From an uncultured Oscillospiraceae bacterium (GTDB taxonomy: Bacteria > Bacillota > Clostridia > Oscillospirales > Acutalibacteraceae), in contig CAOKRT010000006.1 of the NCBI GenBank assembly GCA_948471205.1, forward strand, positions 1 through 64,000: 64,000 bases of DNA, read 5' to 3'. The notes under the pieces were generated by a model that was not told the origin of the DNA, did not search any database, and saw only the letters and a list, made by a program, of their open reading frames with translations. Below are positions 4,268 to 49,087 of the stretch, one piece after another (within the stretch, counting starts at the first letter, position 1; each line of letters opens with the position of its first letter). Both the position numbers and the translations under genes were made by a program.

Positions 4268-4771
4268 TTATTCCCATTTTAAATTATGAAGCTGACCTTT
4301 CAAGGACAGTTCAGGATAATCCCACTGCCGCAAAACCTCGTAAACACCCACTGCCGCCGCATTGCTTAAATTGAGGCTTCTGATTATGCCACGCATTGGC
4401 AGACGAACACAATAATCATGGTTTTCTTTCAAAAGTTCTTCGGGAAGACCTTTTGTTTCCTTCCCGAAAACAAGATATGCATTGTTCGGATAGGTAACAT
4501 CCGTATGCGTTTGTTCTGCCTTGGTGGTAAAATAGAAAAATTTTCCGCCCTTGTTTTTTTCAAAAAATTCCTGTGTATTGCTGTAATATGTAATATCCAG
4601 CTTATCCCAATAATCAAGACCTGCGCGACGCACCTGTTTATCTGTTATCTGAAATCCCATCGGACCGACAAGATGCAGCCTTGCGCCTGTTGCGGCGCAG
4701 GTGCGTGAAATATTACCTGTATTTTGCGGGATTTCAGGTTCTATAAGCACAATGTTAAGCGAGTATTCCAT
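4268..4771 (-). CDS. trmL: tRNA (cytidine(34)-2'-O)-methyltransferase
   Basis: A SPOUT-superfamily methyltransferase of the TrmL/YibK/CspR type, which 2'-O-methylates the wobble base of leucine tRNAs using SAM. The 167-residue product is family length. It carries the N-terminal PEIPQNTGNISRTC block, the middle LVFGKETKGLPEEL motif and the C-terminal RSLNLSNAAAVGVYE segment that builds the SAM-binding knot. Its start overlaps the nagA stop by 17 bp, so it is the last cistron of dus-nagA-trmL and is probably translationally coupled. Confidence 0.92.
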   Translation of the reverse strand: MEYSLNIVLIEPEIPQNTGNISRTCAATGARLHLVGPMGFQITDKQVRRAGLDYWDKLDITYYSNTQEFFEKNKGGKFFYFTTKAEQTHTDVTYPNNAYLVFGKETKGLPEELLKENHDYCVRLPMRGIIRSLNLSNAAAVGVYEVLRQWDYPELSLKGQLHNLKWE

Positions 4772-5876
4772 TAATATATACTTCCTTTATGTTCATCTGC
4801 TCATCGACAAAGATGATATCTGCATCCTTATTCGGAGCAATACTTCCGATTTTATTCTGAAGCCCGATTGCCTTTGCCGGATTAATTGTACAGCTTTTAA
4901 GCGCAGATTTAAAATCAACGCCGAACGCAAGCAGATTTTTAAATTCATCAAAAACATTGGTTATGGACGCTGCAATTGTTCCGTCTTCAAGAACGGCAAA
5001 TTTTCCGCCCTCATAAACATACGTTTTCTGACCGCCCAGATCAAACTCGCCGGCGCCCAAACCGGCACCGCGCATGGAATCCGAAATGACGCAAACTCTG
5101 TTTTCGCCAAGAATTCTGAAAGTGTTTCTTACAACCGCCGGGCAAACATGTCCGCCGTCGCATACCAGTTCGCACATCACCTTTTCATTATCCATAACCG
5201 TGCCGACAACACCGGCTTCCCTGTGTGTCATGCCGGTCATAGCATTATAAAGATGTGTTGCGTGCGTTATTCCAAAATCTATTGCTTTCTGTGCCTGCTC
5301 TGCATTTGCCGATGTATGACCGATTGCAACCACGCATTTTTTGCTTGCCTCTTTGATAAATGCTTCACTTTCAAATGCTTCAGGCGCAATGGTAATCAAT
5401 TTAACCAGTTCCCCGCTTTCGATAAAAAGCTGATTGAATTCCTGCAGTGTGCCGGCTCTGACAAACGCACCGTTTTGTGCACCTTTTTTTGCATAAGAAA
5501 GAAACGGACCTTCCAGGTTAATACCTGCAAGTTTTGCACCGGACTCCCTACCCTTATATTCTTTTGCACATTTCACAATTTTAGTAAGTGTTTCATTATC
5601 CAGCGTCATAGAAGTTCCGCAAAATGATGTAACACCGCACTTTGCAAGATAACGGCTGATTTTATCAACCGCTTCTTCTGAAGCATCGGAAAAATCACCG
5701 CCGTTTCCGCCATGAATATGTATATCCACAAAGCCGGGAAAAGCTGTTAACCCGCTCATATCTCTGCCCGGTTCATCTATTACACCGATTTCGTCAATGA
5801 TTCCGTTTTCAATTCTTAAATCTGCAATCTCTTTTTCAAACACTTCATTGTAAAAGCAAACATTTTTTAAAATCAT
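4755..5876 (-). CDS. nagA: N-acetylglucosamine-6-phosphate deacetylase
   Basis: NagA removes acetate from GlcNAc-6-phosphate to give glucosamine-6-phosphate, feeding amino sugars to glycolysis or wall synthesis. The 373-residue amidohydrolase shows the metal site DIHIHGGNGGDFSD, the LEGPF acidic ligand, the HTSAN and HLYNAMTG histidine segments, and the catalytic aspartate in CVISDSMRG. The ribosome site AAAGGA precedes the ATG, which overlaps the dus stop by one base. No nagB is nearby, so the deaminase must be encoded elsewhere. Confidence 0.94.
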   Translation of the reverse strand: MILKNVCFYNEVFEKEIADLRIENGIIDEIGVIDEPGRDMSGLTAFPGFVDIHIHGGNGGDFSDASEEAVDKISRYLAKCGVTSFCGTSMTLDNETLTKIVKCAKEYKGRESGAKLAGINLEGPFLSYAKKGAQNGAFVRAGTLQEFNQLFIESGELVKLITIAPEAFESEAFIKEASKKCVVAIGHTSANAEQAQKAIDFGITHATHLYNAMTGMTHREAGVVGTVMDNEKVMCELVCDGGHVCPAVVRNTFRILGENRVCVISDSMRGAGLGAGEFDLGGQKTYVYEGGKFAVLEDGTIAASITNVFDEFKNLLAFGVDFKSALKSCTINPAKAIGLQNKIGSIAPNKDADIIFVDEQMNIKEVYINGILA

Positions 5877-6841
5877 TACGCATTTTCCTTTATTATTCTG
5901 AAAATTATTTCTTCAAGCTGTTCAAAGCTTTCAAGGCTTCCCATTTCTGCCCTGAATTTTGCACCGCCGCGAAGCCCCTTTGTATAATAAGCGGCATGAT
6001 GGCGTGCCTCTCTCATTGCAGTATATTCACCTTTGTATTCAATTATTTTCCTGATATGCTGCCGCATAACATTCATTTTTTCAATAAGCGACGGTTCGGG
6101 AATCACTATACAATCATGAATATATGCATTAATTCTTTGAAACAGCCACGGATTTCCCATTGCACCCCTGCCTATCATAAGCGCATCGCAGTTTGTTTTT
6201 TCAAGCATCACTGCGGCGCTCTGTTCATCCGTAACATCACCATTGCCGATTACCGGTATACCGACTGCAGCCTTTACCTGCCTGATTATATCATAATCAA
6301 CATTTCCGCTGTACATTTCCTTGCGTGTTCTGCCGTGAACAGCAATGGCACAGGCACCGTTCTTTTCCAGAATTTCCGCCATTTTAACAGCATTAATGCT
6401 GTTTTCATCCCATCCCTTTCTGATTTTTGCCGTTACGGGAATATCAACAGCCGAAGATACCGCCTTAACAATTTCACCTGCAAGAACAGGATTTTTCATA
6501 AGGCTTGCACCGCCGCCGTTCATTGCCACCTTTGGTGCAGGGCATCCCATATTTATATCAATTACTGCCGGATGAAATTCCAGACATTTAACCGCAGCTT
6601 CCGCCATAATTTCAGGATTGTCTCCGAAAATCTGCGCGCCTGCTGTTTTTTCACCGTTTCCTAAAGTTAAAAGCATGGCGCTTTTTTTATCTCCCATGGT
6701 AAGCCCTTTGGCGCTTACCATTTCAGTAACTGTATAAGCAGCGCCGAAACGCACGCAAAGTTCGCGAAAAGCCTTATCTGCAACCCCCGCCATAGGCGCA
6801 AGAAAAGCAATATTTTCAAATTCAATATCCTTAATTTTCAT
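5876..6841 (-). CDS. dusB: tRNA-dihydrouridine synthase
   Basis: This FMN enzyme reduces uridines in tRNA to dihydrouridine. The 321-residue product has the N-terminal FLAPMAGVADKAFR flavin-site motif, the Dus signature DINMGCPAPKV with its catalytic cysteine, the VTAKIRKGW lysine block, AVHGRTR and GNGDV. The ATG at 6841 (start MKIKDIEFE) was chosen because the longer frame upstream has no ribosome site, whereas AGAGGTA sits just before 6841. A TATACT-like -10 lies near 6860, so it may have its own promoter after the rpsR terminator. Assignment to DusB rather than another paralogue is by general likeness. Confidence 0.9.
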   Translation of the reverse strand: MKIKDIEFENIAFLAPMAGVADKAFRELCVRFGAAYTVTEMVSAKGLTMGDKKSAMLLTLGNGEKTAGAQIFGDNPEIMAEAAVKCLEFHPAVIDINMGCPAPKVAMNGGGASLMKNPVLAGEIVKAVSSAVDIPVTAKIRKGWDENSINAVKMAEILEKNGACAIAVHGRTRKEMYSGNVDYDIIRQVKAAVGIPVIGNGDVTDEQSAAVMLEKTNCDALMIGRGAMGNPWLFQRINAYIHDCIVIPEPSLIEKMNVMRQHIRKIIEYKGEYTAMREARHHAAYYTKGLRGGAKFRAEMGSLESFEQLEEIIFRIIKENA

Positions 6842-11788: not shown

Positions 11789-12064
11789 AAAAAAACACCC
11801 CTATATAGCATAGGGGTGTAGAATTCTACACGGTACCACCCTATTTCAGCAGAAAGCCTGCCCTTTAGCATCTAATAATGCCTTAACCTTTAACGCAGTT
11901 ATACGTCTGCTCCTATTGCCTTTCGGTTTTTCAGAACAGCAACTCCACAGAGAGCTATACATTATAATTTCCGTATCGGCTTGCACCTTCCGCCGACTCT
12001 CTGCAACTGAAAATCATAATCTTTTTCTGTTTCACAGTATTTTATGGGTACTATTTAATTTAGT
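11789..12064 (-). promoter_or_regulatory. T-box leader controlling leuA-leuB
   Basis: A T-box riboswitch senses uncharged tRNA and permits read-through when the amino acid is scarce. On the minus strand, the T-box sequence AGGGTGGTACCGTG (11842-11829) is near-perfect. It is followed by a terminator stem ACACCCCTAT/ATAGGGGTGT with a T-run (11820-11789). The 5' half folds into a Stem I with AGAGAG pairing CTCTCT and a GGTGC-type distal loop. A leucine CUC triplet at 11954-11952 is a candidate specifier. This is tentative, but it agrees with the leucine genes downstream. Confidence 0.93.
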
Positions 12065-35024: not shown

Positions 35025-35729
35025 TTAATCCTTTGCAGAGGTAATATAATACCATTCAATAACATCGCCGTCATTCAAAATATATTTTGATGCAGGCTTG
35101 GGCGGGCGCTTGCCGTTCACGCTGTACATCCAGCCGCTTGCCGCACCGCAGTCTTTTTCCGAAAGTCCGTTAATAGACTGAATATAATTTTCGGATTTAT
35201 ATTGAAGCGAGATTCCTTTTTCCCTGCACTGCTGTTTTAATATATCAAAAGCCGTTATGCCTCTGTTTACGAAAACCGAAGACGGCATTATGAAATACCG
35301 GGGCACATCCTTTCCGTAATCGGCGGCCCTTGCACAATTAATGGAAAATGTAACCGAAATCTGCTGTTTTTCGGTTTCTGCGGCATGTTCTGTTTCAGAC
35401 AGAGCTGCAGCCGGCTTTTTTTGCGTTGTTTTTTCCTTAACTGAATTGGGCAGGGTGCTTTTTTCTTTTACCGTACTTTTTTCGATTATTTTTTCTTTTT
35501 GTGTATCTGTAGTTTTATCAGACACATTTGCCGCATCTGCATTTTCTCTTTCGGTCACGGTAACTGTTGCTTGGTCCGTAACCGTTTTTTCTGTTGTATG
35601 GATTGAATCCGATGCATAAGATTCTGAAAGTTCTGTTTGATTTCTGTTTTTAACATGCTGAAAAATTCCTGTAAATATACAAACCGCTGTTAAAACACAG
35701 ACAATCATAATTATTATTTTCTTATTCAT
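35025..35729 (-). CDS. membrane-anchored DUF4430 (transcobalamin C-terminal-like) protein
   Basis: 234 residues. Residues 6-24 are a membrane anchor, ~30-120 a Thr/Glu/Lys-rich stalk, and ~125-234 a DUF4430 domain (ITAFDILKQQC, GAASGWMYSVNGKRP, YILNDGDVIEWYY). DUF4430 is the beta-domain found at the C-terminus of animal intrinsic factor and transcobalamin, where it closes over bound cobalamin. It is divergent from the cobalamin-riboswitch gene at 35981. No ribosome site is visible: a plausible -10 lies only eight bases before the ATG, suggesting a leaderless or near-leaderless mRNA. Confidence 0.85.
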   Translation of the reverse strand: MNKKIIIMIVCVLTAVCIFTGIFQHVKNRNQTELSESYASDSIHTTEKTVTDQATVTVTERENADAANVSDKTTDTQKEKIIEKSTVKEKSTLPNSVKEKTTQKKPAAALSETEHAAETEKQQISVTFSINCARAADYGKDVPRYFIMPSSVFVNRGITAFDILKQQCREKGISLQYKSENYIQSINGLSEKDCGAASGWMYSVNGKRPPKPASKYILNDGDVIEWYYITSAKD

Positions 35730-35736
35730 ATTTTAT

Positions 35737-35765
35737 ATAATAACAAATTCATTTCTATTTGACAA
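35737..35765 (-). promoter_or_regulatory. promoter of the DUF4430 gene
   Basis: On the minus strand, TTGTCA (35765-35760), 17 nt, TATTAT (35742-35737). The -35 coincides base for base with the -35 of the opposite promoter. Confidence 0.6.
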
Positions 35766-35788
35766 CAAATATAATCATATTGTATAAT
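35759..35788 (+). promoter_or_regulatory. sigma-A promoter of the riboswitch-controlled gene
   Basis: TTGACA (35759-35764), 18 nt, TATAAT (35783-35788), placing transcription start near 35795 at the 5' end of the riboswitch. Confidence 0.85.
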
Positions 35789-35792
35789 TTTT

Positions 35793-35947
35793 CAGTGCCG
35801 AGAAAAAGATGCTGACTTTTTCACGGGGAATACGGTGAAAATCCGTAACAGCTCACTCTACTGTAAGCAGGTGCAAGCTCCATAAGCCACTCGGTATCGG
35901 GGAAGGCGGAGCAAGGTTAACACCGCAAGTCAGGATATCCGTCTGAG
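35793..35947 (+). promoter_or_regulatory. cobalamin (B12) riboswitch
   Basis: The conserved aptamer blocks occur in order: GGGAATACGGTGAAAATCCG, then CTCTACTGTAAGCAGG, GCCACTCGG, GGGGAAGGC, and the 3' B12-box region CCGCAAGTCAGGATATCCGTC. No terminator hairpin with T-run lies between it and the start at 35981. Repression is therefore probably translational, by masking the GAGGTAAAGG ribosome site. A CCGT (35939-35942) is complementary to the ACGG just before that site. Confidence 0.92.
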
Positions 35948-35980
35948 GCATAAATAAATTTTTACGGTGAGGTAAAGGAA

Positions 35981-37057
35981 ATGAAAAAATTTTTATCAGC
36001 GCTCCTCGCAGGAATGCTTATTATGTGCACATCTGTAACAGCATTCGGAGCAACAGCAAACGATGTGAAAAAACAAATGACAACCGCCGTACAGTATCTT
36101 TACGGTGAAAAGGAAAGCTTTTCGGCAGAAGAAGCAAAAGATTTTTATTTATATCTTACTTCCGGCTCCGATGCAGCGCATTATAAAGAAGCATGGTGCG
36201 ATTCTGTTACAAAAGCTGTTGAACAAGGCACACTTTCGGGAATCGGCAATATTGCGCTTGTCATTTACGATACAATCATGCTGGGTATGAATCCTTATGA
36301 TTTTAACGGCATAAATCTTGTGGAAATCTTTTCCGAAACCCCTTTAAACGAATCAGACAGCCCATATACAGATATGTATGCGGCAGATATTGCGTTTGCT
36401 TTTGAACTTGATGAGCTTGGCAGAAAAATATGCAGCAGGCTTGCAGAAAAATACACAATTGGAAAAGGCACGGACTTTTGGGGCGGTTACGGAACAAGTC
36501 CGGATGATTTAAGCGTGTTTATTATTGCTCTTTCAAACTATGCGGATGATTATACCGAGTATTTGGAAGATGCTTTCAAACTTCTGAAAACCTTTAACAC
36601 AGAAGAAGGCTACGACAATTACGGACCGAATGCAAATTCAACAGCGTATGCACTTGCCGCCGCTGTTTGCGCAGGCGATAAAAACACCGCAGATGATGCA
36701 TACAATAAATTAATTCGCTTTTATAATAAGGAAACAGGCGGTTTTATCGGTTCTTATGACGATATAATCTCAACACAGGATGCTGTTTTCGGACTTGGCT
36801 ATTACCTTTCTTTTGCAGAAGAGGATGAACCTGCCGGTAAACCCGAAACAGACGTTTCAACAACAGAAATACCGCCTGAAGAAGACACAACCAAAACTGA
36901 AACTGCGCCTGAAACAACCACTGAAAAAGAGTTGTCCGAAAACAACGGCAAACCCGCAAAATCGCCGGCAACAGGTGCCCCTGCAGCAGCTTTTTCCGTT
37001 ATTGCAATGCTTGCCGCAGGATCGGTAATGATTTTTGCAAAGAAAACCAGAGATTAA
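35981..37057 (+). CDS. secreted alpha/alpha-barrel, transcobalamin/prenyltransferase-like protein with sortase-type C-terminus
   Basis: 358 residues. A signal peptide (1-24, ending AFGA) precedes a helical domain (~25-285) with repeats of the alpha6/alpha6 toroid kind, such as GYDNYGPNANSTAYALAAAV and a final TGGFIGSYDDIISTQDAVFGLGYYL. This is the fold of the cobalamin-binding N-terminal domain of intrinsic factor/transcobalamin. A Thr/Glu/Pro-rich stalk follows. The C-terminus has SPATG, a hydrophobic helix and KKTRD, i.e. a sortase-like sorting signal. The B12 riboswitch upstream and the divergent DUF4430 gene point to surface cobalamin capture, which is inferred. Confidence 0.8.
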   Translation: MKKFLSALLAGMLIMCTSVTAFGATANDVKKQMTTAVQYLYGEKESFSAEEAKDFYLYLTSGSDAAHYKEAWCDSVTKAVEQGTLSGIGNIALVIYDTIMLGMNPYDFNGINLVEIFSETPLNESDSPYTDMYAADIAFAFELDELGRKICSRLAEKYTIGKGTDFWGGYGTSPDDLSVFIIALSNYADDYTEYLEDAFKLLKTFNTEEGYDNYGPNANSTAYALAAAVCAGDKNTADDAYNKLIRFYNKETGGFIGSYDDIISTQDAVFGLGYYLSFAEEDEPAGKPETDVSTTEIPPEEDTTKTETAPETTTEKELSENNGKPAKSPATGAPAAAFSVIAMLAAGSVMIFAKKTRD

Positions 37058-37117: not shown

Positions 37118-37705
37118 TTAAGACTGCTTTATGATTTTTCCAATGGTATTCGGTGCCATTCCGGCAGCGTTTGATTCATCAGTATCAATATGCATTGCAA
37201 GACCTGCCGTTTTTGATACTCTAACAAGCACATCCCCGAAAATCAGTGTTCTTTCCAGCGCAGACGGGATTTCCACATTTACAATTTCCCTGTCTGTTAA
37301 ATTCATACGCTGCGCATCTTCCGGTGTTGCATGAATATGGCGTCTTGCAATAATAACGCCCTTTGTAATTTCAATTTCTCCGCGCGGACCGACTATTCTG
37401 CAGCCGCCCGAACCTTCCAAATCGCCGCTTTCCCTGATAGGTGCCTTAATGCCTATTGAACGTGCATCTCCAAGCGACAGCTCAACCTGGGTATACGGTC
37501 TTACCGGACCTAAAATAGACATTGCCGGAAATTCACCCTTGGGCCCGATAACACGCACCCGTTCCTCACTTGCAAACTGCCCCGGCTGTGTTAGCGCCTT
37601 TTTAAATGTAAGCTCATAGCCCTTTCCGTAAAGAGTATCAAGATCTTCTCTTGTTAAATGAACATGGCGTGCTGAAACTTCAACAACAATTTCATCATTT
37701 TTCAT
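37118..37705 (-). CDS. pduL: phosphate propanoyltransferase / phosphotransacylase PduL
   Basis: PduL-type phosphotransacylase exchanges CoA and phosphate on acetyl or propionyl groups. The 195-residue product has both beta-barrel halves with the zinc-binding histidines: VSARHVHLTREDL near the N-terminus and ARRHIHATPEDA in the second half, plus GPRGEIEITKGV. There is no encapsulation-type N-terminal extension and no microcompartment shell gene is near. A free cytosolic role in acetate or propionate production is therefore likely. The gene is monocistronic. Confidence 0.92.
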   Translation of the reverse strand: MKNDEIVVEVSARHVHLTREDLDTLYGKGYELTFKKALTQPGQFASEERVRVIGPKGEFPAMSILGPVRPYTQVELSLGDARSIGIKAPIRESGDLEGSGGCRIVGPRGEIEITKGVIIARRHIHATPEDAQRMNLTDREIVNVEIPSALERTLIFGDVLVRVSKTAGLAMHIDTDESNAAGMAPNTIGKIIKQS

Positions 37706-45888: not shown

Positions 45889-46680
45889 TTAAAAAACAAA
45901 AATCTGCAGTGCACACAGCGCTGCACATACACAGAATGATATAATTTCAATTTTTCCCATATGGAATTTTTTTCTTATTTTATTATTTTTATCCAAACAG
46001 CAGCCCCTTGCCTCCATCGCAAGCGCAAGCTCGTCCGCCCGCCTGAATGCAGATATAAAAACCGGAACAAGCATGGGCAAAACCGCTTTCGCTCTGGAAA
46101 AAATCCGTTTGCTGTCAAAACCTGCACCCCGTGCCGTTTGCACCTTTTTAATCATTTGCGCTTCAAATGTTAAAACAGGAATAAACTGAACGGCGGCGGA
46201 AATAATCAGCGCCGCCTGACCGACAGGCACTTTAAATACCGAAAGCGGCGAAAGAAAATTTTCTATTGCATCTGTAAGCCCTGCAGGCGGTGTTGTTGAA
46301 TTCAGAATATTTGAAAACAGTACAAACAGAGTAACCCGCACCACCACTTTCATTCCCTGCAGCATTCCGGCATAGGAAGGACTGAATATCCAAAGGCGAA
46401 TCCATGCATGATCGGCATCAAAAAACAAAAGATTCATTATAAATATAACAATAAAAAACCATAAAAGCGCCGGAATGCCGCCGATTGCCTGCCTGAATCC
46501 GATGCGGGACAGCAACAGCACAAAAAGCACAAATACAATCATTACTGCATATCCCACAGGTGAATGTGCCGCAGAAACAGCGGCGGCAAGTATTAAAAAC
46601 AAAACCAGCTTTACAGTTATATCCATACGGTGAATCACCGAATTTCCATACTGATACATACCGTTCGGAAGATTTTTCAT
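45889..46680 (-). CDS. ecfT: ECF transporter transmembrane component EcfT
   Basis: EcfT couples the ATPases to vitamin-binding S components. The 263-residue protein has about five helices and two Ala-Arg-Gly signatures (ARGAGFDSK and AMEARGC), which dock on EcfA. ATG at 46680 has GGGAGGAAAG upstream and overlaps the ecfA2 stop by four bases. Confidence 0.95.
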   Translation of the reverse strand: MKNLPNGMYQYGNSVIHRMDITVKLVLFLILAAAVSAAHSPVGYAVMIVFVLFVLLLSRIGFRQAIGGIPALLWFFIVIFIMNLLFFDADHAWIRLWIFSPSYAGMLQGMKVVVRVTLFVLFSNILNSTTPPAGLTDAIENFLSPLSVFKVPVGQAALIISAAVQFIPVLTFEAQMIKKVQTARGAGFDSKRIFSRAKAVLPMLVPVFISAFRRADELALAMEARGCCLDKNNKIRKKFHMGKIEIISFCVCAALCALQIFVF

Positions 46681-47522
46681 TTTTCTTTCCTCCCGTATAC
46701 TCTGCATATTTCATCTATAAGCTGATTAAACGTGACAGTACCCGGCGATATATCGGCGCCGTTTTCCCTGAGCATTTCGGCAATTTCACAAACCTGCCCC
46801 GCACCAATGCCGTTTTGTTTCAAAAAAGGATACTCTGCCAGTACATTTTCTGTTTTTCCGTCTTTTAACACCTGTCCGTTTTTCATAATGATCAGCCGCC
46901 GGGTATATTCTGCAAGAAAATCTGTATTATGAGAAACAATAATGATTGTTTTCCCCTGTTTGTTTAAATCCGAAACAAGCTTTTCAAACCATTCTCTGTT
47001 CTCACAATCCAGCCCGGAAACAGGTTCGTCAAATATAAATATTTCCGGATTTGCTGCCAGAATGCCGGCTATAGCAATACGGCGTTTTTCACCGCCGGAA
47101 AAACTGAGCGGAGACCGATTTTTTACCTTTTCATAATCAAAGCCTGTATCTGCCAGTGCTTTTTTAACAGCATTTTTCCTTTCACTTCGCCTGAAGCCTG
47201 CTTGTTTCAGACCGAATGCAACATCCCTTTCAACCGTTGTTTCAAAAAGCTGATAATCCGGAAACTGAAAAACAACACCTATCCCTGCGCGTAGAATGCT
47301 TCGGTCAAAATTTACAGCATGTATATCCTGTCCGTTAAGCAACACTGTGCCCTCATATGGCTTCAGAAGCCCGTCCATCATCTGTATCAGCGTTGTTTTG
47401 CCGCTTCCCGTTTCACCCATTATTCCAATAAATTCGCCCTGTTCAATTTGCAGGCTTACCTTATTCAAAGCGTCTGATTCGGGCGAATATTTATATGAAA
47501 CGGATTTTAATTCAAGGCGCAT
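46677..47522 (-). CDS. ecfA2: ECF transporter ATPase EcfA2
   Basis: A 281-residue ATPase of the energy-coupling module. Walker A GETGSGKTT, Q-loop FQFPDYQLFETTVERDVAFG (the long Q-helix typical of EcfA), signature FSGGEKRRIAIAG and Walker B IFIFDEPVSGLD are all intact. It overlaps the ecfA1 end by 16 bp. Confidence 0.95.
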   Translation of the reverse strand: MRLELKSVSYKYSPESDALNKVSLQIEQGEFIGIMGETGSGKTTLIQMMDGLLKPYEGTVLLNGQDIHAVNFDRSILRAGIGVVFQFPDYQLFETTVERDVAFGLKQAGFRRSERKNAVKKALADTGFDYEKVKNRSPLSFSGGEKRRIAIAGILAANPEIFIFDEPVSGLDCENREWFEKLVSDLNKQGKTIIIVSHNTDFLAEYTRRLIIMKNGQVLKDGKTENVLAEYPFLKQNGIGAGQVCEIAEMLRENGADISPGTVTFNQLIDEICRVYGRKEK

Positions 47523-48346
47523 AATTCACCCGCCAGTTCTTTATTGGTTAAAGGACATCTTTGAAGCTTAATGCCTCTTTTTTCAAGTTCATAATATACG
47601 CTTACTGCCATCGGCGGCCGTATGCCGGCACGGTTCAGCAAGTTTATATCTGTTAAAATATCATACGGTGTTCCTTCAGCCAAAACCGTTCCGTTTTTTA
47701 AAAGGATTATCCTGTCTGAATACACAGCCTCTTCAACATAATGCGTGGTCATGATAACGGTATGCCCCATACTGTGAAGCTTTTGTATAACGGAAAGGAT
47801 TTCCTGTCTGCTGTTTGGATCAAGCATTGCCGTTGCTTCGTCAAAAAGAATAATATTCGGCTGAATGGCAAGAACGCCGGCAATTGCGATACGCTGTTTC
47901 TGACCGCCGGAAAGAGAATAGACCGATTTCTTTTCATATCCGTTCATTCCGACTGCTTCAAGCGCAGCTTTGATTCTTAATGCTGTCTCCTCCTCTGAAA
48001 CACCAAAATTTTGAGGACCGAAAGCCAAATCTTCTTCAACAAGCGAAGAAACAAACTGATTATCGGGATTCTGAAAAACCATTGCACATTTGCTTCGGAT
48101 TTTTTGCACAGCGCTTTTGTCCGAAACATCCAGTCCGGCAACACGCAGACGACCGCTCTGAAGCAAAATCAGCATATTCAAATGCCTTGCAAGTGTTGTT
48201 TTTCCGCTGCCGTTTTCTCCGAGCACAGAAATAAATTCACCTTTTTTAATATCAAAGCTTACACCGTTAAGCGAACGGCATTGTGCGCCGTTCAAAAAAT
48301 AAGTATGTATTAAATTTTCGGCTGAAACAGAATTCAGAAAACTCAC
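47507..48346 (-). CDS. ecfA1: ECF transporter ATPase EcfA1
   Basis: A 279-residue ATPase with Walker A GENGSGKTT, Q-helix FQNPDNQFVSSLVEEDLAFG, signature LSGGQKQRIAIAG and Walker B IILFDEATAMLD. It starts with GTG at 48346, with GAGGA upstream. It forms the heterodimer with EcfA2. It is divergent from a dedicated S-component gene. Confidence 0.94.
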   Translation of the reverse strand: MSFLNSVSAENLIHTYFLNGAQCRSLNGVSFDIKKGEFISVLGENGSGKTTLARHLNMLILLQSGRLRVAGLDVSDKSAVQKIRSKCAMVFQNPDNQFVSSLVEEDLAFGPQNFGVSEEETALRIKAALEAVGMNGYEKKSVYSLSGGQKQRIAIAGVLAIQPNIILFDEATAMLDPNSRQEILSVIQKLHSMGHTVIMTTHYVEEAVYSDRIILLKNGTVLAEGTPYDILTDINLLNRAGIRPPMAVSVYYELEKRGIKLQRCPLTNKELAGELCALN

Positions 48347-48505
48347 CGCCGTTCCTCTATTTTAAATTTATATTATATGAAAAAGAAGCAGAATGCAAGT
48401 TTCCGGATAAAATATCGGAAAATTATTATTAAGCGGCATCTTGAAAACAGAAAAGCAGTATGTTATTTTATATCTATAACTTTTTCTGATGGGATATAAA
48501 TATAA

Positions 48506-49087
48506 ATGAATACTATGACCGCTGTTAAAAAATCAATCATTACTGCTGTGTGCGCGGCACTGTGCGTTGTTTTGCCGCAGGCATTTCACGCAATACCCAA
48601 TGCCGCTTTGGTTTACAGCCCTATTCATATTCCGGTATTGCTCTGCGGTATTCTGTGCGGACCGTATCTCGGCGCTGTGTGCGGAATTGCCGGTCCCGTT
48701 CTTTCAAGTCTGTTTACCGGAATGCCTGCCGCCGCCATTCTGCCGCAAATGATGATAGAGTGCGGCGTTTACGGCCTTATATCCGGGCTTATGATGAAAT
48801 TTGTATCAACAAAAAACATGTATGCCGATTTGTATATCAGCCTGATTACTGCTATGCTTTTCGGCCGTATTATTGCCGGACTTGCAAAGGCTTTCATTTT
48901 TGCAAAAGGTGAATATACCATAGCTGCGTGGGCTACTGTTTATTTTGCAACAGCGCTTCCCGGCATTGCCGTGCATCTGATTTTAATTCCCGCTGTTGTT
49001 TTTGCGCTTGCAAAAGCCGGGCTTGTTCCGTTAAAATATTCTGCAAAAACAAATGAACCGCCGACGGAAAATATAACCGTACAGTAA
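48506..49087 (+). CDS. ECF transporter S component, substrate unknown
   Basis: A 193-residue integral membrane protein with six predicted helices. The block HIPVLLCGILCGPYLGAVCG (about residues 37-56) and SSLFTGMPAAAILPQMM are typical of vitamin-binding S subunits of the ECF_trnsprt family. It is divergent from ecfA1-ecfA2-ecfT, with a ~160-bp gap. No riboswitch was recognised upstream, so the vitamin cannot be deduced. Candidates include pantothenate, folate or cobalamin carriers in this broad family. Confidence 0.85.
   Translation: MNTMTAVKKSIITAVCAALCVVLPQAFHAIPNAALVYSPIHIPVLLCGILCGPYLGAVCGIAGPVLSSLFTGMPAAAILPQMMIECGVYGLISGLMMKFVSTKNMYADLYISLITAMLFGRIIAGLAKAFIFAKGEYTIAAWATVYFATALPGIAVHLILIPAVVFALAKAGLVPLKYSAKTNEPPTENITVQ

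Follow-up and report, generated by a model that had tools for sequence, protein, structure and literature searches.

A predicted split, transcobalamin-like cobalamin scavenging locus in an uncultured Oscillospiraceae bacterium

Results

The divergent gene pair and its products

Two divergent genes for predicted surface proteins flank a short control region with a cobalamin riboswitch in the 64 000-nucleotide stretch of Oscillospiraceae DNA analysed here as a whole (the window). Their features, in window coordinates, are:

35025..35729, minus strand: gene for a membrane-anchored DUF4430 (transcobalamin C-terminal-like beta-grasp) protein, 234 aa (PF14478)
35043..35261, minus strand: PF14478 profile match, including the family-conserved SGWxYxVNG stretch
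35364..35651, minus strand: Thr/Lys/Glu-rich stalk from the anchor to the DUF4430 domain (composition)
35737..35765, minus strand: promoter-like sequence TTGTCA-17-TATTAT for the DUF4430 gene, the -10 being preceded by TG; layout kept in 12 of 12 loci
35759..35788, plus strand: promoter-like sequence TTGACA-18-TATAAT for the riboswitch-toroid transcript, agreeing with the consensus at 12 of 12 bases
35777..35960, plus strand: cobalamin riboswitch aptamer (RF00174 model match)
35852..35856, plus strand: CUCAC in a small hairpin loop of the aptamer (RF00174 model alignment)
35961..35976, plus strand: hairpin UUUAC-GGUGAG-GUAAA with Shine-Dalgarno-like bases in its loop, a predicted translational expression platform
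35981..37057, plus strand: gene for a predicted secreted, wall-anchored toroid protein, 358 aa (open reading frame, signal peptide, profiles)
36059..36811, plus strand: alpha/alpha-toroid domain, about residues 27-277 (hhalign, profile A3 against A5)
36824..36955, plus strand: Thr/Glu/Pro-rich stalk (composition)
36956..37054, plus strand: SPATG-type sorting signal, hydrophobic stretch and basic tail (sequence, weak sortase-signal models)

An earlier note on this DNA had described the plus-strand product as a secreted, stalked protein with a SPATG-type end, and this was borne out. A signal peptide leads into a domain of ~250 residues; next come a stalk of 44 residues, among them 10 T, 10 E and 6 P, and a C-terminal sorting-like signal, in which AKSPATG precedes a hydrophobic stretch and KKTRD. 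Sortase-signal models match the protein weakly, under their cut-offs, and its searches also returned a weak match to the IsdC sorting region; the organism's own genome contains three sortase-family matches. The divergent product likewise proved to be the membrane-anchored, stalked DUF4430 protein that had been proposed: PF14478 scores 72.3 bits, the only DUF4430 match in the genome, and a hydrophobic N-terminal anchor precedes a stalk of 96 residues (17 T, 13 K, 13 E). Between 82 and 136 residues separate the hydrophobic stretch from the domain in all 29 homologues aligned. With the DUF4430 profile (A2), no transcobalamin or intrinsic factor was retrieved from the PDB, the matches being weak and mostly to the stalk.

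A diverged toroid family

Searched as a single sequence, the toroid protein had no match in Pfam and nothing usable in NCBIfam or the PDB. At E 0.1, matches to PF01122 and to the toroid families are also missing from all 27 members of its family profile (A3). A3 was aligned by hhalign to A5, a profile of 29 clostridial DUF4430-linked toroids (27 of the class loci L140-L169, 30 in all, leaving out L144, L148 and L165, together with those of the genus members L097 and L110). The probability was 98.6% (E 1.2e-15), against at most 10.5% for 40 shuffled controls and 0.3% for the reversed one. A5 itself matches squalene-hopene cyclase structures (E 3.9e-14, summed over repeats that are individually weak), and Pfam Prenyltrans matches 25 of its 29 members at E <=0.01. 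We conclude that, by profile homology, the 35981 product is a predicted member of the alpha/alpha-toroid (prenyltransferase/cyclase-like) fold, which upholds the earlier claim at the profile level, and that it appears to represent a new, diverged toroid family that Pfam does not match.

The earlier note had also likened the two products to the PF01122 and PF14478 halves of human intrinsic factor. The PF14478 half of this comparison holds for the divergent protein, whereas PF01122 is absent from the window toroid as from A3; it matches 2 of the 29 related toroids in A5 (best E 0.0058). Another toroid profile (A1) gave only a weak squalene-hopene cyclase match in the PDB (E 0.068), and neither A1 nor A5 retrieved transcobalamin or intrinsic factor chains there. 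T166, Q217 and Q270 (as in the first A5 row), which are invariant polar positions of the broad toroids, align to other residues in the window family, so its cavity may bind differently. An alignment of the full A3 with DUF4430 (24.7%) was rejected, as it covers 23 leader-peptide columns and falls to 0.1% for the domain only.

The riboswitch and the divergent control region

The riboswitch of the earlier note was confirmed. RF00174 matches over model positions 1-189 of 189 with 78.5 bits (gathering score 31.5; E 1.2e-17), the 3' end lies 20 nt before the toroid gene, and this is the single match in the whole genome. The note had placed the pair as a whole under the riboswitch; this is so for the toroid transcript, which alone carries it, but not for the DUF4430 gene, which is preceded by its own divergent promoter-like site. 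The DUF4430 ATG stands 7 nt after the -10, from which we predict a leaderless mRNA, and the gene is apparently leaderless in all 12 divergent-type loci. The two promoter-like sites overlap at their -35 elements.

The aptamer loop holding CUCAC, which we take to be L5, is complementary to GUGAG in the loop of the downstream hairpin. CUCAC is part of AGCUCACUC in each of the 12 loci, and the Shine-Dalgarno-bearing hairpin loop with its L5 complementarity is present in the same number. When the hairpin was measured in the divergent-type loci except L124 (11 of 12), it occurred in the minimum-energy fold of six, and was absent from that of the window itself. Two expression-platform classes cover the window and 24 of 29 loci; four others (L121, L128, L137 and L139) have no RF00174 match in their stretches, and L126 has a riboswitch with no class assigned. 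From the hairpin and the loop complement we predict that the toroid gene is regulated by cobalamin. The conserved combination of overlapping divergent promoters, L5-complementary hairpin and apparently leaderless DUF4430 gene appears to be new.

Linkage in the genus and the class

The toroid search took in 72 of the 80 genomes of the genus. A riboswitch lies <=2.5 kb upstream of 52 of the 60 toroid matches, and DUF4430 is present in each of the 58 genomes with a toroid match. By a coordinate test 12 of 76 riboswitch matches lack a toroid link, five of these being in genomes outside the toroid search; of four inspected, two are upstream of toroid proteins and two are not. Two genus members have the domains fused, as DUF4430-toroid proteins of 2613 aa (L097, with a riboswitch upstream) and 611 aa (L110, in which the window-family profile matches the toroid at E 1.7e-8, and on whose contig no riboswitch was found).

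These data bear on whether the two proteins might bind corrinoids independently and in series, one storing them at the wall and the other receiving them at the membrane, and never form one sandwich. Their anchors do differ (sortase-type and membrane), the two genes are separately controlled, and 19 of the 76 genus riboswitch matches have a downstream toroid match but no DUF4430 match within the distances tested, some contigs being short. Nevertheless, we think binding in series unlikely, given the constant company of DUF4430 in toroid-carrying genomes and the fusion of both domains into one chain, in the two genus members as in the animal proteins, where they sandwich one B12 according to Burroughs et al. 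(2007; PMC1796856).

In the Clostridia, toroid and DUF4430 commonly occur as separate genes lying side by side. The earlier note's claim of two separate proteins stands for this locus but the split is not peculiar to the window organism; DUF4430 is found in the stretch examined for 23 of 30 toroid loci. Other class-locus counts rest on 14 stretches: the CbrT-like S-component family is present in 12 and RF00174 in 10, and six of the seven loci mapped gene by gene read toroid and DUF4430, then EcfT, EcfA-A and S. ECF genes also adjoin toroid/DUF4430 in L097 and L110. It could be argued from this that the locus is entirely ordinary, belonging with the transcobalamin-like B12 scavengers that were proposed for bacteria in 2007 and new in its gene order alone. 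PMC1796856 indeed proposes B12 scavenging for this clade, whose surface SLBB proteins it places next to CbiO/CbiQ genes; a toroid may be present or missing, and a second paralogue often occurs as well. We find that reading somewhat unlikely, because Pfam fails to recognise the diverged toroid family of the window, and because the open-licence literature gave, among the matches listed, no description of the divergent riboswitch/leaderless region.

Cobalamin transport and use in the host

The host genome (1.85 Mb, 98.9% complete) has an EcfT/EcfA-A/S cluster at C1 (L199), unlinked to the toroid/DUF4430 pair and with no RF00174 match nearby. A profile of its S family (A6, own protein first, 11 rows) matches 6fnp_A with E 1.3e-13 and 54.3 bits; PDB 6FNP is the B12 transporter ECF-CbrT, as stated in PMC5997447. 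The C1 S-component is thus a candidate CbrT-like B12 transporter. The ECF genes within the window (45889-49087) were rejected for this role: their S-component has only weak folate/riboflavin-type matches and, though in the searched set, was unmatched by CbrT-like S queries. A BtuC-type importer was likewise rejected, the own-genome search having found no FecCD/BtuC-type permease.

The genome encodes a MetH-type protein with B12-binding domains, and at its 98.9% completeness has no match for MetE or for CbiD, the single corrin-ring marker searched. The host is probably a B12 auxotroph; carriers of the clade are bacteria usually without key B12 synthesis enzymes, according to PMC1796856. By genomic context, the pair and its riboswitch appear to be tied to B12 scavenging.

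It could still be that only expression is tied to cobalamin, and that the pair works in adhesion or takes up something else, be it a cobamide precursor (cobinamide, for instance) or a different ligand. In PMC1796856 both the authors and a referee allow other ligands in the clade, the toroid cavity positions have diverged, and a stalked, sortase-type architecture suits adhesins too. We regard this as quite improbable in view of the CbrT-like ECF linkage in relatives, the position here of the genome's single riboswitch match, and a MetH-type enzyme with no MetE match beside it.

Discussion

We believe that the locus probably encodes a transcobalamin-like system, split into two proteins, by which a probable B12 auxotroph scavenges cobalamin. 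This supports part of the overall reading of the earlier note: a separate toroid, a separate DUF4430 protein and a link to B12 are well supported (through homology, fusions, riboswitch linkage, the CbrT-like ECF transporter, and the presence of a MetH-type enzyme where CbiD had no match), and the wall-to-membrane relay is something that we infer. At low cellular cobalamin, the riboswitch would keep the ribosome-binding loop accessible, and synthesis of the toroid protein, its export and its attachment to the wall would follow. The DUF4430 protein, presumably translated from a leaderless mRNA that escapes direct riboswitch control, would stand in the membrane on its long stalk. Together with the DUF4430 beta-domain, the toroid cavity may hold cobalamin at the surface, from where it could be handed to the unlinked ECF transporter with the CbrT-like S-component, the imported cobalamin then presumably serving the MetH-type methionine synthase.

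A more specific version, which we put forward tentatively and at rather less than even chances, is that of a non-covalent intrinsic factor. Wall and membrane proteins would close round one cobalamin; a kissing-loop translational riboswitch would hide the toroid ribosome-binding site, the other half being constitutive, leaderless and driven from the shared -35 region; and the loaded pair would dock on the unlinked CbrT-type ECF transporter.

To our knowledge, surface capture of B12 by Gram-positive gut bacteria that lack BtuCDF is poorly understood, and we know of no classical soluble binding protein for ECF transporters. In this locus a riboswitch ties transcobalamin-like surface proteins to B12, and relatives add a tie to a CbrT-like transporter. 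With these ties, the 2007 proposal can be tested directly on two small soluble domains. If our interpretation is right, the architecture of the animal B12 carriers exists as two separable bacterial parts, with a compact divergent control region that places the two halves under different expression logic.

Comparison with known systems

Among the matches listed from the open-licence literature, we recognised none that describes toroid and DUF4430 as a split pair with a cobalamin riboswitch. The Isd-type haem relay of Gram-positives is a wall-to-membrane cofactor relay; the present system shares that idea, the sorting region alone is alike, and Pfam and NCBIfam searches of the window proteins reported no NEAT domain. 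Bacteroidetes BtuH-type proteins, as described in PMC8941943 and set beside ours by description, are also extra surface B12 binders of gut bacteria, those being Gram-negative. With ECF-CbrT of Lactobacillus delbrueckii (PMC5997447), the host shares an S-component family alike by profile and has no BtuC-type permease that we could find, whereas its own T-AA-S cluster is unlinked to the pair and has a specificity predicted from the profile.

The animal transcobalamin, intrinsic factor and haptocorrin (PF01122 with a C-terminal DUF4430-like domain) have in common with the pair a toroid, a DUF4430-type beta-grasp, an extracellular location and a B12 context; in the window, by contrast, these are two separate anchored polypeptides, the toroid is without PF01122 and cobalamin binding is a prediction. 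The bacterial transcobalamin-like SLBB proteins of PMC1796856 resemble the pair in a surface DUF4430 recognised by sequence, a toroid partner and predicted B12 scavenging. CbiO/CbiQ-type ECF genes adjoin those systems but are unlinked (C1) in the window genome, and the window pair differs from them in being split and divergent, with the riboswitch on the toroid gene and a toroid that is highly diverged.

A probable toroid gene and a divergent DUF4430 gene beside a cobalamin riboswitch

The earlier note read this locus, from its sequence, as a split transcobalamin-like capture system relaying B12 from wall to membrane. The riboswitch, sorting signal and DUF4430 domain that it named all lie where it had placed them:

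35025-35729, minus strand: DUF4430 ORF (PF14478, 72.3 bits), with an N-terminal hydrophobic anchor, then a Thr/Lys/Glu stalk ahead of the domain
35777-35960, plus strand: cobalamin riboswitch (RF00174, 78.5 bits, whole model covered)
35981-37057, plus strand: secreted toroid ORF, starting with a signal peptide, continuing with a ~250-residue domain and a Thr/Glu/Pro stalk, and ending in a SPATG-hydrophobic-KK tail

The DUF4430 match is the only one in the window's own 1.85 Mb genome, and a search of that genome found no second RF00174 copy. A phosphate propanoyltransferase (PTAC) gene (37118-37705, minus strand) is convergent with the toroid gene. Elsewhere in the window, a T-box leader (11809-12044, minus strand, 114.7 bits) lies directly upstream of a gene that, by eye, looks like 2-isopropylmalate synthase.

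As a single sequence, the toroid protein convincingly matched neither a toroid family in Pfam nor a chain in the PDB. We then compared two alignments: A3, containing the window protein and 26 relatives, and A5, containing 29 toroid domains from two toroid/DUF4430 fusions (L097 and L110) and 27 clostridial loci. They matched in hhalign with a probability of 98.6% (E 1.2e-15, 255 columns). When the comparison was repeated with controls, the true pairing scored 98.7%, as against at most 10.5% for 40 column-shuffled profiles, 0.3% for a reversed profile and 0.1% for a DUF4430 alignment. A5 in turn matched squalene-hopene cyclase structures (E 3.9e-14, added up from repeats that individually match weakly), and 27 of its 29 members matched SQHop_cyclase_C and 25 Prenyltrans at E 0.01 or better. 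Because of these profile matches, we consider the window domain very likely to be an alpha/alpha toroid. At the same threshold PF01122 (Cobalamin_bind) was matched by 2 of the 29 (best E 0.0058), so that any relationship to that family is probably remote; neither A5 nor another toroid profile, A1, retrieved a transcobalamin or intrinsic factor chain. Several polar positions that are invariant in A5 align to other residues in the window family, and cavity chemistry may therefore differ between the two groups.

Fusions, transporter-linked loci and probable B12 use by the host

Both domains occur in one polypeptide at two loci. At L097 the gene behind the riboswitch encodes 2613 residues, with DUF4430 spanning 1953-2029 and a toroid roughly 2240-2530; the divergent DUF4430 gene of this locus is itself followed by EcfT and a fused EcfA-A-S. 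The 611-residue protein of L110 carries DUF4430 at 66-142 (slightly below the Pfam cut-off) and a toroid at 266-459 that is detected by the window family's own profile (E 1.7e-8); its gene is followed by those for a DUF4430 protein, EcfT and EcfA-A-S, and an RF00174 search found no riboswitch on the contig.

Within the class, a toroid of this type occurs in 73 of 245 genomes. Of 30 loci retrieved, 23 had DUF4430 in the same short stretch, usually as an ORF of its own. Among 14 longer loci, RF00174 was within the stretch in 10 and the same S-component family in 12, and six of the seven loci laid out gene by gene had toroid and DUF4430, then EcfT, EcfA-A and S; at L184 the order is riboswitch, toroid, DUF4430, EcfT, EcfA-A-S. 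We conclude that the split is a common clostridial arrangement, of which the pair in the window is a rearranged version, unlinked from the transporter.

An EcfT/EcfA-A/S cluster of the class-locus type is present on contig C1 of the window's own genome. The profile of its S family (A6, 11 rows) matched 6FNP with E 1.3e-13; this structure is ECF-CbrT, described as a vitamin B12 transporter (PMC5997447). The window's own ECF genes (45889-49087: a separate EcfT, two EcfA genes and a divergent PF12822 S-component) were rejected as a CbrT-like set, since that S-component belongs to another S type. FecCD/BtuC, CbiD and MetE had no match in the genome, and a MetH-type protein of 795 residues has both B12-binding domains; a second PF02310 match fell below the cut-off. 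Judged by the single synthesis marker CbiD, the host is likely to be a B12 auxotroph, and it likely needs cobalamin for methionine, imported via the ECF system.

Distribution and layouts within the genus

At E 1e-5 the toroid protein was found in 58 of 118 relatives. Every one of these belongs to the same genus, which supplied 72 of the genomes; the other 46 gave no match. DUF4430 was present in 73 and RF00174 in 72 of 80 genus genomes, and in 58 and 56, respectively, of the 58 with a toroid. A same-strand riboswitch lay within 2.5 kb upstream of 52 of 60 genus toroid matches. The genome search that the earlier note had proposed recovered the divergent layout at 15 of 76 genus riboswitch matches. 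The order riboswitch-DUF4430-toroid was found at 18, a toroid only at 19 and DUF4430 only at 10; one had DUF4430 downstream and another divergent, and one had just a divergent DUF4430. The remaining 12 had neither gene, and five of them lie in the eight of 80 genomes omitted from the toroid search. Four of the 12 were inspected: two (L087, L089) precede toroid proteins missed or unlinked by the single-sequence search, and two (L063, L068) precede different large secreted proteins.

At the latter two (L063/L098, G070:C9; L068/L100, G028:C14) the gene behind a second cobalamin riboswitch encodes a secreted protein of 747-803 aa outside the toroid family; that of L098 has a carboxypeptidase-regulatory-like domain, and the toroid profile matches its sorting region only. 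The riboswitch of L109 (G033:C1, ~5350-5525, minus strand) adjoins a DUF4430 gene, the downstream ORFs listed are all on the opposite strand, and the toroid match of that genome is on a separate contig, C8; this looks like a rearrangement that left the riboswitch orphaned. L108 (G122, 4569-6448) is a window-type divergent pair in a genome with no RF00174 match. Four toroid proteins of 620-760 aa (L103, L104, L106, L107) are extended at the N-terminus by ~230 aa, a segment that on visual inspection looks like a degenerate DUF4430 domain; in L103 and L104 Pfam found no DUF4430 match there.

Two apparent switch modes and divergent promoter-like sites

In all 12 divergent-type loci GGUGAG, with its Shine-Dalgarno-like bases, shortly precedes the toroid ATG (by 8-10 nt at the 11 loci measured), and the aptamer contains AGCUCACUC, whose CUCAC is complementary to GUGAG. 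In the RF00174 model alignment CUCAC makes up the loop of a small hairpin in the aptamer, a loop that we take to be L5. Kissing loops are a feature of cobalamin riboswitches. Nine of 11 loci have a completely paired stem around GGUGAG. Of its cells 96.4% are paired, with eight compensatory cells and a covariation score of 0.36; none of 500 shuffles, which ignore kinship, reached any of these values. The two double-change pairs and three pair types were not above shuffles (reached by 444 and 110 of 500). Minimum-energy folding produces the hairpin at 6 of the 11 loci; the window is not one of them.

The 12 divergent-type loci showed no terminator in the short interval from aptamer to toroid ATG, whereas at 12 of 13 operon-type loci a terminator hairpin lies within a 140-base region around the end of the aptamer and beyond it (3 of 1300 mononucleotide shuffles yield one), and none of the 13 has GGUGAG in that region. 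Because of this difference between layouts, one genus appears to keep the same system under a translational switch in the divergent layout and a transcriptional switch in the operon layout.

The two genes diverge from promoter-like sites whose -35 boxes overlap:

toroid side, plus strand: TTGACA-18-TATAAT, 12/12 consensus bases
DUF4430 side, minus strand: TTGTCA-17-TATTAT, 10/12 consensus bases, TG before the -10

The scan gave nine such sites in 2.3 kb, with 5.4 expected from shuffles. In 12/12 divergent-type loci (window 35729-35765) the DUF4430 ATG falls 6 or 7 nt after the TG-extended -10 and no Shine-Dalgarno-like bases precede it. The mRNA is thus predicted to be leaderless, a trait apparently conserved over these loci; the mechanically called ORF begins further upstream in L119 and L124.

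Proposed mechanism and comparison with known systems

Under B12 shortage, the toroid protein would be translated and, after export, attached to the wall, and the DUF4430 protein would be held at the membrane on its stalk of ~100 residues. Together they would hold cobalamin and hand it over to the CbrT-like ECF transporter; the order of this relay, the affinity and the docking on the transporter are steps that we infer.

No description of a riboswitch-controlled split pair was recognised in the open-licence literature searched. In animal transcobalamin, as outlined in PMC1796856, two domains of a single chain sandwich B12, and it is the fusions that support a comparable, predicted sandwich in the bacterial pair. 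Burroughs et al. (2007; PMC1796856) proposed B12 scavenging for transcobalamin-like surface proteins of bacteria, whether or not these carry toroids; such proteins co-occur with CbiO/CbiQ genes in hosts that usually lack key B12 synthesis enzymes. The reading as split B12 capture was thus right at its core and overstated in its novelty, since the split form is widespread and B12 scavenging had already been proposed in 2007.
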